From the NCBI GenBank assembly GCA_030524175.1, contig JAUNHC010000032.1:1-63485 (forward strand): a stretch of 63,485 nucleotides of DNA, written 5' to 3'. Positions 3,362-35,360 of the stretch are shown here, piece after piece. Under the pieces are notes generated by a model, which saw only the letters and a program-made list of their open reading frames with translations, searched no databases and was not told the origin of the DNA. Source of the DNA: Eubacteriales bacterium (GTDB taxonomy: Bacteria; Bacillota; Clostridia; Lachnospirales; Lachnospiraceae). Both the position numbers and the translations under genes were made by a program. Position 1 is the stretch's first letter. Every line of letters begins with the position of its first letter.

Positions 3362-3527
3362 AGTCACATTCCTCCTTTTATTAAATGCTGTAGGGATCAA
3401 AAGGTATTTTCCCCCCTGATGCCTACGGATTTCTTCCCACTTCGTGCTCCAGAAATCCTAAAAACATTCAGAATCTGCCCTGATCGGGCTGATTTTTCAT
3501 GTTTTACGGGTCCAAAACTCATCTAAT

Positions 3528-3699
3528 TGCATGCGGGCATGCATTGTATGACCTTTTGACCCTGTCATCATTAAATTGTACTATAGATAGTAATTCCCGC
3601 ATAGTAAAAATTCGACATCATTGGGAGAACAAGTGAAACGGAATTACTGTTCGCTGGTAATATCACGCGAGGGCATTACCGGGCGGAATGAACAGCAAT
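3528..3699. repeat. Palindromic intergenic element, copy 1 (in a 0.48-kb gene-free gap)
   Basis: The gap from 3362 to 3842 holds no convincing gene. It contains a TGCATGC/GCATGCA dyad (3528-3543) and a compact palindromic unit at about 3643-3699, with arms CTGTTC/GAACAG and GGTAAT/ATTACC. The stretch 3643-3672 (core CTGGTAATATC, then CGCGAGG) matches the reverse complement of 35663-35692 at about 26 of 30 bases. This makes it a dispersed small repeat, possibly a degenerate miniature element. Confidence 0.6.
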
Positions 3700-32340: not shown

Positions 32341-33672
32341 ATGAAGCAGAGGATTTTGAATCATGTGAGCTTTCTTGTGATACTGTCCGTACTTCTCACC
32401 TTTGTTGCTGCAAGTACAGTCATGTACAGTAAATTCAGCACTTACATGAAAGAAGGGGTGCGTGATGAAGCCCAGTATATCCGTGTAGGTATGGAGGAGG
32501 TGGGGGAGGAGTTTCTGTCCGATAAAGTAGGGCGGCTTACCGGGAGCCGTGTTACCTTGACTGACAGGGATGGAAACGTACTTTACGACAGTGAAGCAGA
32601 TCCCAAGGAGCTTTCCAATCACAGTGACCGTCCGGAGTTTATCCAGGCCATGGAGGAAGGAGAAGGGGAGAAAGTAAGATTTTCAGAGACACTTTCCGAG
32701 CAGACCTTCTATTATGCTGTACGCCTTGAAAATGGTGAGATTCTCCGTGTGGCGCGGACGACAGAAAGTGTTTTCCTTACACTGATGTCCAGCTTTACAC
32801 TGCTGGGTGTGCTGATGGTGGCAATTCTTCTTCTGGAATTTTTCCTGGTACAGAAGCAGACCAGGGATTTGATCGCGCCTATTAATGAATTAGATTTGGA
32901 ACATCCCCTGAAAAATGTGTGCTATGAGGAACTCAGGCCTCTTCTGGTGAGAGTGGATCAGCAGAATCAGCAGATCGCGGCCCAGGTGGAGGAGCTGAAA
33001 AGTGCTGAAACCATGCGCCGGGAATTCTCTGCCAATGTATCCCATGAGCTTAAGACTCCTCTGATGTCAATTTCGGGCTATGCTGAGCTGATGATGAACG
33101 GAATGGTGAGACCGGAAAATGTTCCGGATTTTTCAGGGCGTATTTACCATGAAGCCAGCCGTTTGAGCAGCCTGGTGGCCGACATCATCCAGTTGTCCCG
33201 CCTGGATGAAAAAAGCAGCGACATGCCTTTTGAGGCAGTAGATTTGTTTGAGCTTGCGGAGGATATCACAGGGCATCTTTCCCAGGCAGCAGAAAAAAAG
33301 GGGATAAGCCTGAAGCTGGAAGGAAACTCCGTGTCCGTCCGGGGTGTCCGCCAGGTGCTCTATGAAATGTTTTATAATGTGGCTGACAATGCGGTGAAAT
33401 ATACACAGGAAGACGGCAGTGTGAAGATTTTTGTGGGGAAAAGTGAGGGACATGCTGTTTATTGTGTGGAAGACAATGGGATAGGCATTCCCAAGGAAGA
33501 ACAGGGAAGGATTTTTGAACGGTTTTACAGAGTGGATAAGAGCCATTCCCGCCAGACAGGGGGAACGGGCCTGGGGCTCTCTATTGTCAAGCACGGAGCA
33601 GCTCTTCATCATGCTCAGATCAGCCTCAACAGTGAACCGGGAAAAGGTACGAGGATAGAGCTGAAGTTTTGA
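32341..33672 (+). CDS. PhoR-like sensor histidine kinase
   Basis: A 443-residue membrane kinase. It has two membrane helices (about 7-25 and 142-165) around a periplasmic-type sensor, H-box H235 (VSHELKTPLMS), N-box YNVADNAVKYT, and ATP-lid GIGIPKEEQGRIFERFYRVD then GGTGLGLSIVKH. It forms an operon with the response regulator. It is probably a phosphate or envelope sensor, by context only. Confidence 0.9.
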   Translation: MKQRILNHVSFLVILSVLLTFVAASTVMYSKFSTYMKEGVRDEAQYIRVGMEEVGEEFLSDKVGRLTGSRVTLTDRDGNVLYDSEADPKELSNHSDRPEFIQAMEEGEGEKVRFSETLSEQTFYYAVRLENGEILRVARTTESVFLTLMSSFTLLGVLMVAILLLEFFLVQKQTRDLIAPINELDLEHPLKNVCYEELRPLLVRVDQQNQQIAAQVEELKSAETMRREFSANVSHELKTPLMSISGYAELMMNGMVRPENVPDFSGRIYHEASRLSSLVADIIQLSRLDEKSSDMPFEAVDLFELAEDITGHLSQAAEKKGISLKLEGNSVSVRGVRQVLYEMFYNVADNAVKYTQEDGSVKIFVGKSEGHAVYCVEDNGIGIPKEEQGRIFERFYRVDKSHSRQTGGTGLGLSIVKHGAALHHAQISLNSEPGKGTRIELKF

Positions 33673-33804: not shown

Positions 33805-34320
33805 TTAAATATATGCACTTTTGTTACTACCTGTTTCCTGCTCTTGCAATTCTGCCAACATCATTTTTTCAATTCTGATTACGTCCGGCTGCGTTGGAGT
33901 AAAACGTACCCCTGTATGTAACAGGTTGATGATCTTTCGGGCGTTTTTCTCTAATTCCTGTATCAGCTTTGGGTCTGCAATCCGTACAGGCTGCCCACCC
34001 TTAATATACTGTCCGTCTATGTACGCTTTAATCACGGGAAACATATCTTGAAATAGTAATACAGTTTTGCGGTCAAAGACCTTTACAATCTTGATTGTGT
34101 CCGTAGGCTTATGCTGCTCCTGTTTTTTCTGTATCAGCCGTTCAAACTTTTCAATCTTGGAGCTGCAAGGGACTAACCAATACAGCCCTGTACTCTCGTC
34201 CAGAAAAGCGAAATAGTGAGGCCGCTTTGTATTTTCATAATTGATTTTCAGATAAGGGTCTTGTACTTTTACGAAAAAGTCATCAGAAATAAAATATAGG
34301 CTTCCCGTTAGAATATCCAT
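33805..34320 (-). CDS. ToxN/AbiQ-like endoribonuclease toxin of a type III toxin-antitoxin system
   Basis: A 171-residue basic protein, the usual length of ToxN-type toxins. It has the layout LYFISDDFF, then RPHYFAFLDESTGLYWLVPCSSKIEKF, then a helical C-terminal half, which resembles the ToxN/AbiQ/CptN fold pattern, although I cannot assign the subfamily. The decisive evidence is upstream: tandem 45-nt pseudoknot repeats, then a terminator hairpin, then this gene. In known systems the toxin cuts RNA, including its own repeat precursor, and each repeat unit inhibits it in a ring-shaped complex. Phage defence by abortive infection is the usual outcome. The ATG was chosen for its AAGGAGAT site. 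Confidence 0.82.
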   Translation of the reverse strand: MDILTGSLYFISDDFFVKVQDPYLKINYENTKRPHYFAFLDESTGLYWLVPCSSKIEKFERLIQKKQEQHKPTDTIKIVKVFDRKTVLLFQDMFPVIKAYIDGQYIKGGQPVRIADPKLIQELEKNARKIINLLHTGVRFTPTQPDVIRIEKMMLAELQEQETGSNKSAYI

Positions 34321-34345
34321 AATCGTATATCTCCTTATATAAGAT

Positions 34346-34375
34346 AAGCCTCTTGCGTTTCGAGGCAAGAGGCTT
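34346..34375 (-). terminator. Leaky terminator between antitoxin RNA and toxin gene
   Basis: An 11-bp perfect stem (arm AAGCCTCTTGC, 34346-34356 with 34365-34375) followed on the minus strand by ATCTTAT. Type III systems carry such a terminator at this place so that antitoxin RNA is made in excess over toxin mRNA. Confidence 0.85.
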
Positions 34376-34380
34376 ACACA

Positions 34381-34496
34381 CTTTTCCACGGCCTATTTAT
34401 AATTCGCATGGCCGGAAGCGAACTACTTTTCCACGGTCTATTTATAATTCGCATGACCGGGAGCGAACTACTTTTCAAGGTAGTTGCCTACCTGTT
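34381..34496 (-). ncRNA. ToxI-like antitoxin RNA: two 45-nt pseudoknot repeats
   Basis: Two full 45-nt repeats (34426-34470 and 34381-34425, minus strand) differ at four positions; a third boundary fragment (CTTTTC on the plus strand) starts at 34471. Each unit forms stem 1 TTCGC/GCGAA (plus positions 34403-34407 with 34418-34422 in the second unit). Its loop holds one arm of stem 2 (34410-34414 with 34389-34393), giving an H-type pseudoknot. Stem 2 is CGGTC/GACCG in one unit and CGGCC/GGCCG in the other, a compensatory pair. A GGTAG-TTGC-CTACC hairpin (34479-34492) caps the 5' end. The order promoter, repeats, terminator, toxin is that of toxIN. Confidence 0.85.
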
Positions 34497-34502
34497 ACTA
34501 TT

Positions 34503-34531
34503 ATTATACGTAAGCTCTGCGAATATGTCAA
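34503..34531 (-). promoter_or_regulatory. Consensus promoter of the type III toxin-antitoxin operon
   Basis: On the minus strand TTGACA (34531-34526), a 17-bp spacer and TATAAT (34508-34503) give a perfect sigma-A promoter, about 30 nt before the first full repeat. Its strength fits high antitoxin RNA output. Confidence 0.85.
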
Positions 34532-34586
34532 CCTCATCAAATAATTTTCAAAGCACAAAAGCCTCTCGCATATTTGCGTAGATTTC

Positions 34587-35360
34587 CTATTTGGCAGATG
34601 TGTAGGGCGGGTCGGCAGGATAGCCGCCGGCGGCTTTTTGCATTGCCCGTTGCAGGGCATCTTTGGATGTTTTCCAGTCAGCATCTTTATAGCGGTAGTC
34701 GAATTTGTCGCAGAACCAGTCCAGATCGTCGTAGAGTCTTTTCATGTTATCTTTCATGAGGGGCAGGAATTCCTGGAAAAATTCTTTTTTTTCTTTATCG
34801 GAGAGGACACGGTCCCCTTCCTCCGCCAAATCTCCGAAGTGTGGGATGCAGAAGCCTTTGCTGCTGCGGAATAATTCTTTAAAGGAGGCATCTTTCCGGT
34901 ACATTTCAAAGAAAGTATCCAGGTAACGCTGATAAGTGTTTTTATAAAAGTTACATATATAACAGCTTTCTTCCTTGGTTTTTGTCCAGGCGCCAAGGGA
35001 GGTGCGGGAGGAAGTGTCTTTGGTTTTCTGTTTTTTAAGCTTATCCATAATAGAAGCACGGGAGGGGGCGAACATTTTGATCTGTTCATCCAGCTCTTTG
35101 TTAAGCTTCTGGAAGTGTGTTTTCATGATCAGACCGGAGCCAAGACGGTTGCCGTATTCATACATTTTCTTGTAATGTGTACGGCAAAAGCCATAGGAAT
35201 CAGTTTCGGCCCGTACATCGTCCTCCATATAAGAGGCGCCGGGCCCAAGGACGAAATCAAGAGTGTGTTCTTCCAGTTTTCTTTCTACAAAACAGAAGGG
35301 ACATTCATCTTCTGCCCGGAAAGCATCCATCAGAGGTATGGTATATAATTGTTCTTTCAT
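34587..35360 (-). CDS. DUF6062-family cysteine-rich protein
   Basis: A 257-residue soluble protein of a Firmicutes family of unknown function. Two matching halves each contain a CxxC and a GFC-x2-H motif: CPFC and GFCRTH in the first, CYIC and GFCIPH in the second, which suggests a duplicated metal- or haem-binding domain. GGGAG lies before the ATG. It stands upstream of, and in line with, the toxin-antitoxin operon, but that operon has its own promoter. I cannot give a function. Confidence 0.75.
   Translation of the reverse strand: MKEQLYTIPLMDAFRAEDECPFCFVERKLEEHTLDFVLGPGASYMEDDVRAETDSYGFCRTHYKKMYEYGNRLGSGLIMKTHFQKLNKELDEQIKMFAPSRASIMDKLKKQKTKDTSSRTSLGAWTKTKEESCYICNFYKNTYQRYLDTFFEMYRKDASFKELFRSSKGFCIPHFGDLAEEGDRVLSDKEKKEFFQEFLPLMKDNMKRLYDDLDWFCDKFDYRYKDADWKTSKDALQRAMQKAAGGYPADPPYTSAK

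Follow-up and report, generated by a model that had tools for sequence, protein, structure and literature searches.

Anatomy of the locus

The locus that we have analyzed lies on the reverse strand (-) of a contig from a Lachnospiraceae genome; by the window we mean the whole 63,485-nt stretch of that contig. From position 34531 down to 33805, one finds in order a promoter, a leader hairpin, two 45-nt repeats, a strong hairpin, the motif AAGGAG, and a 171-codon gene. The promoter (34503-34531, -) has the form TTGACA-17 nt-TATAAT, and agrees with the sigma-70-type consensus at 12/12 positions. Weaker promoter-like sites are frequent by chance (the same scan finds 4, versus 2.2 in shuffles), and the one at 34531-34503 is the only perfect one. 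TTGACAT together with TATAAT or TATGAT occurs at the same place in 15/16 related loci, the exception being L013, which was left out of the promoter comparison run on these loci. The ribosome binding site AAGGAG (34331-34336, -) is read from the sequence 10 nt before the ATG of the gene (33805-34320, -), which we call cptN, as its 171-aa product is assigned to the CptN endoribonuclease family by the profile NF047359, by the structure 4RMO, and by its relatives. A sequence-only reading of this DNA had already given these coordinates, the perfect promoter, the two 45-nt repeats, and the 171-codon gene, and all of them are borne out when checked against the sequence.

Between the repeats and the gene there is a strong hairpin (34344-34377, -), in which 34377-34365 pair with 34356-34344 around an 8-nt loop. 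The same reading had described an 11-bp terminator. The hairpin is there, with 12 Watson-Crick and one G-U pairs; what follows it is ATCTTATA, a weak U-tract at best, and a terminator scan did not list a hairpin at 34344-34377. A long stem is found at the same place in 15/15 close loci, and we presume that it acts as a leaky terminator.

Two genes outside the system mark the site by synteny. Upstream there is a gene for a DUF6062 protein (34587-35360, -; PF19538, 332.7 bits), and downstream, in convergent orientation, an open reading frame (32341-33672, +) that, from its sequence read by eye, we take to be a sensor histidine kinase. They are 914 bp apart, with the module in between.

A search of Rfam with positions 34300-34600, allowing E-values up to 1, has RefA1 as its sole match, at a chance-level E-value of 0.94. 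Elsewhere in the window, a Clostridiales-1 RNA (RF01699) at 3417-3570 (-), with 94.3 bits, is the only Rfam match at the gathering score.

Identity of the toxin

Three families of type III toxin-antitoxin systems were reportedly defined in a 2012 paper. The 171-aa protein scores 163 bits against NF047359, the NCBIfam equivalog model for CptIN, whose cut-off is 90, with residues 7-154 aligned over model positions 2-150. Compared with the sequences of the PDB, its only match at E 0.001 is 4RMO, the CptN of Eubacterium rectale (E-value 2.3e-35, residues 6-152), while Pfam and PADLOC return no match at E 0.001. It is 76-84% identical to 12 intact relatives, and 36-43% identical to four E. rectale-like CptN proteins. 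By each sequence test made, the protein is the CptN toxin of a CptIN system. Since the NF047359 cut-off is passed and 4RMO is matched, the system is assigned to CptIN, and not to ToxIN/AbiQ or to an unnamed subfamily with a divergent toxin, as the sequence-only reading had proposed; on this point its proposal does not hold.

The residues named for the active site of CptN are S51, S52, R53, D81, S85, and Y104 in 4RMO numbering (PMC4627078), which by our own count on the PDB sequence alignment correspond to S53, S54, K55, D83, T86, and Y105 here. All the positions are kept, with two conservative changes (R53 to K55 and S85 to T86). S53, S54, and Y105 are invariant across 17 CptN sequences, as is K55 among the 13 close-clade toxins (the window's and its 12 intact relatives). 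Positions 83 and 86 are looser, since within the close clade the former can be D or N (N in four sequences) and the latter T, S, or A (A in L009). An AlphaFold prediction using 13 sequences (the window's and 12 relatives) produced a poor model, with mean pLDDT of 53.8.

Repeats and pseudoknot pairing

Repeat 1 (34429-34473, -) and repeat 2 (34384-34428, -) adjoin each other. In repeat coordinates, stem S1 pairs 7-12 with 20 and 22-26, stem S2 pairs 14-19 with 36-40 and 42, loop L1 is position 13, and loop L2 is positions 27-35. Between the two units L1 changes from C13 to U, and exactly one base pair differs, the S2 pair 18-37, from U-A to C-G. This is the two-sided change in stem 2 that had been put forward as a sign of selection on the fold; the change is real, and one pair alone is thin evidence. 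The H-type pseudoknot proposed along with it is also real, and slightly larger than described, as U12-A20 and C14-G42 also pair in 30/30 repeats according to our own reading of the repeat sequences. When folded for minimum energy with a program that cannot form pseudoknots, the two repeats pair with each other instead.

The same design has been described for the CptI RNA of E. rectale: two 45-nt repeats, each folded as an H-type pseudoknot in which L1 is a single base and L2 is A-rich and nine bases long (in the crystal structure, G13 and 27-35, respectively; PMC4627078). The E. rectale repeat, as given in that paper's primer table, and the repeats in the window fit the same 45-column frame for S1, L1, S2, and L2, in line with the crystal structure, and L2 is equal at 7/9 bases. 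A29 is invariant in 38/38 distinct repeats; in E. rectale, antitoxicity was lost altogether when it was changed to U (PMC4627078). Position 30 varies in base and is never deleted in the 38 distinct repeats; in E. rectale it is an outward-facing kink, the deletion of which abolished activity (PMC4627078). Because the loop does vary, searching with a fixed loop motif misses most repeats.

Is the pairing conserved by selection? A search for related loci resulted in 16, of which 14 were scanned for repeats together with the window (L013 and L016 were left out). In 15/15 scanned loci, out of the 17 formed by the window and the 16, two repeats are found exactly 45 nt apart. We have evaluated two sets, A1 with the 30 repeats (26 distinct) of these 15 loci, and A2, which adds to A1 E. 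rectale-like repeats, 12 of them distinct (22 in all, from 12 loci picked by eye), for a total of 38 distinct ones. In A1, 99.0% of the cells pair, compared to 94.1% after shuffling and no more than 40.4% with the partners slid, a control that leans toward the pseudoknot because the structure was derived from these same repeats and the E. rectale paper. Changes on both sides are seen for 5/12 pairs in A1, and for 8/12 in A2, where 98.9% of cells are paired. The number of cells paired, the number of cells changed on both sides, and the covariation score are reached by 0/500 shuffles in either set. The count of two-sided pairs (reached by 6/500 shuffles in A1 and 34/500 in A2) and the count of further pair types (70/500 and 44/500) are weaker measures. 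The pseudoknot pairing is under selection, as had been claimed from the two units of the window, now on the basis of 26 distinct repeats from 15 loci that pair beyond chance.

The repeats also tend to group by their position in the locus. With ties given to repeat 2, the nearest sequence to repeat 1 is again a repeat 1 in 13/15 loci, and to repeat 2 again a repeat 2 in 15/15. Over the 45 positions, mean identities are 37.3 between repeats 1, 40.2 between repeats 2, and 35.5 between repeats 1 and 2 of other loci, according to which repeat 2 separates clearly and repeat 1 only slightly. Repeat 1 resembles repeat 2 in the window and is identical to it in L009, as conversion would produce.

A hairpin in the leader

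Near the expected transcript start, there is a hairpin that the sequence-only reading did not describe (34478-34493, -; AGGTAG-GCAA-CTACCT). A leader stem of 6-7 bp is found in 15/15 close loci that keep repeats, although shuffles exclude chance poorly in 2/15 (0.03 for L005, 0.13 for L007). For the covariation analysis, 14/15 sequences were typed (L015 is identical to L001), 13 of them distinct; 100% of the cells are paired, and 2/6 pairs changed on both sides. The cells paired, the changed cells, and the covariation score are never reached by shuffles. The covariation evidence is still modest, because many shuffles do reach the number of two-sided pairs (212/500) and of pair types (465/500). 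Outside the close clade, in a check of 24 loci using mononucleotide shuffles, a clear stem is found in some (L019, L022, L025, L037, and L043, for example), L020 and L021 have no leader stem of at least 4 bp, and the E. rectale-like loci have no consistent leader hairpin. We make no claim that the leader hairpin is present family-wide.

Transcripts that begin with a hairpin commonly decay more slowly, and for that reason a stabilizing cap is the likely role of the leader hairpin. We have met no description of it in the portion of the CptIN literature covered here. Candidate structured RNAs that precede ToxN have been reported from Clostridiales and Leptotrichia (PMC8040213), and one of these might include the leader hairpin. 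It is conceivable, though doubtful, that the leader hairpin caps the precursor and sets its lifetime, and that at the same time the repeats are positional lineages that cannot be interchanged (except in the window and L009), their pseudoknots possibly having different roles.

Toxins and repeats in the close clade

A full-length toxin is found in 13 of the loci formed by the window and its 16 relatives, and all 13 have both repeats. The other four (L013, L014, L015, and L016) have broken toxins. L013 lacks the N-terminal part of the toxin; L014 lacks an internal part and its frame ends early; L015 lacks the first 108 residues; and in L016 the toxin is broken and the repeats are deleted, while the promoter and the ribosome binding site remain. 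L014 and L015 keep their repeats, while the 290 bases preceding the match show none in L013 or in L016. Homologs without repeats, or with repeats that fail to pair, would have spoken against the system that the sequence-only reading proposed. What we observe goes in its favor: 13/13 intact toxins keep two pairing repeats, the loci lacking them have broken toxins, and none of the intact toxins among the window and the 16 loci was without repeats.

How the module would work, and other readings

We give a probability of around 95% to the locus being a complete chromosomal CptIN (type III) module, probably inserted where it is, whose cleavage, 2:2 complex, toxicity, and neutralization we infer from those of E. 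rectale. In this reading, a single promoter would produce a transcript with the hairpin first and then the two 45-nt repeats. Most transcription would end at the hairpin after the repeats, and a minority would continue into cptN. CptN, an endoribonuclease, would cut the precursor between repeats, and the resulting 45-nt H-type pseudoknots would keep it inactive in a 2:2 ring, as in the CptIN of E. rectale. If RNA synthesis ended, either by loss of the locus or by phage takeover, the pool of antitoxin would drop, and free CptN would cut cellular RNA. The module probably persists as a mobile element that secures its own retention. In E. coli, the CptIN of E. rectale was not seen to give phage resistance (PMC4627078).

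The resemblance to the CptIN of E. rectale (4RMO; PMC4627078) extends to the two 45-nt repeats, the pseudoknot with its one-base L1 and nine-base A-rich L2, the toxin match at an E-value of 2.3e-35, and the active-site positions. The locus in the window differs in having other stem sequences, K in place of R53 and T in place of S85, a leader hairpin, and a pre-gene hairpin without a clear U-tract. In the locus L032 both repeats equal the E. rectale repeat, and the toxin is 36% identical to the one in the window. With ToxIN/AbiQ, the gene order, the expected general mechanism, and an active site that is similar (PMC4627078, PMC5086642) are shared; ToxI of P. atrosepticum, in contrast, has 36-nt repeats and assembles as a heterohexamer, and the CptN of E. 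rectale is less than 15% identical to ToxN (PMC4627078).

Could this then be a member of ToxIN/AbiQ, or of a fourth, unnamed type III family? The gene order is that of published type III loci, and the lack of any Pfam or PADLOC match at E 0.001 could resemble divergence. The protein, however, scores 73 bits above the cut-off of the CptIN equivalog model, and its identity to the four E. rectale-like CptN proteins lies in the range reported for three CptIN systems that have been tested (35-44%; PMC4627078). Among PDB sequences at E 0.001 it does not match ToxN, and the sole match is CptN, even though the PDB has ToxN structures (entries are named in PMC5086642). The NCBIfam match is to CptIN only, with the presence of a ToxN model in NCBIfam or Pfam being unconfirmed. 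We thus consider a ToxIN/AbiQ or unnamed family highly improbable. Equally hard to sustain is that the repeats form a structured 5′ UTR controlling in cis how the downstream gene is translated, instead of an antitoxin RNA acting on the protein. A structured RNA just before a single gene, and a hairpin ahead of the ribosome binding site, are in its favor; against it are the two tandem exact 45-nt copies with covariation, the published CptI layout, and a toxin of the CptN family.

There is also a small chance that the locus, a true CptIN by descent, is now inactive in this genome. The broken toxins in 4/16 related loci (L013-L016) indicate that decay is common in this clade, and K55 and T86 differ from the 4RMO residues. 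Against it, the frame is full length, the promoter is perfect, and the change between repeats is compensatory; moreover, the active-site positions are kept or conservatively changed, and K55 is shared by the 12 intact close relatives. The claim of a type III toxin-antitoxin locus with pseudoknot repeats is in sum strongly supported by the toxin family, the repeat layout, and the pairing. The locus is an ordinary further copy of CptIN, a known family, and leaves what is known of the mechanism unchanged. It does show that a type III locus can be recognized in raw sequence by its anatomy alone.

Insertion site, distribution, and a second copy

The DUF6062 gene was searched in 60 genomes of the genus, the window's own included. 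It matched in 23, and loci were taken for 19 of the 22 others (L048-L066). No match to CptN at E 1e-8 appears in the stretches examined of these 19 loci. The kinase gene is also visible in 8/19, always in convergent orientation, at a distance of 18-189 bp according to the match coordinates, so that all 8 relatives showing both flanking genes have the site without CptIN; in the other 11 the kinase is not visible, and they are uninformative about the site. Conversely, the examined stretches of the 16 related CptIN loci have no DUF6062 gene, and L012 alone has a kinase, with 30% identity. Because the convergent flanks occur without the module in 8/8 relatives, an insertion of CptIN in the lineage of the window, between two convergent genes, is probable and is the simplest reading, the alternative being repeated loss elsewhere. 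The clade offers intact, antitoxin-only, and broken CptIN members as well as module-free sites, and is suited to studying how toxin and antitoxin co-evolve and how the module moves.

NF047359 has matches at E 0.001 in 29/200 genomes (the window's own included), with 23 over the cut-off. Relatives of the toxin are found in 7/72,556 plasmid records, all with less than 60% identity, and none at E 1e-5 in 50,697 phage records.

The same genome carries a second CptIN (L017, at G000:C88:120-563) that scores 182.5 bits against NF047359. Its toxin is likewise a CptN, 43% identical to the one in the window, and comes with a 45-nt repeat of the E. rectale type. Its contig starts inside the repeat array, with only one full repeat visible. 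Three tested CptIN pairs with identities of 35-44% showed no cross-neutralization (PMC4627078), and for that reason we expect the two systems of this genome to act apart. A more distant relative of CptN, L043, has 59.9 bits to NF047359, under the cut-off, and from about position 1325 on its toxin strand it has an array of quite different repeats, with CACAATGT...ACATTGT units, possibly another antitoxin design.
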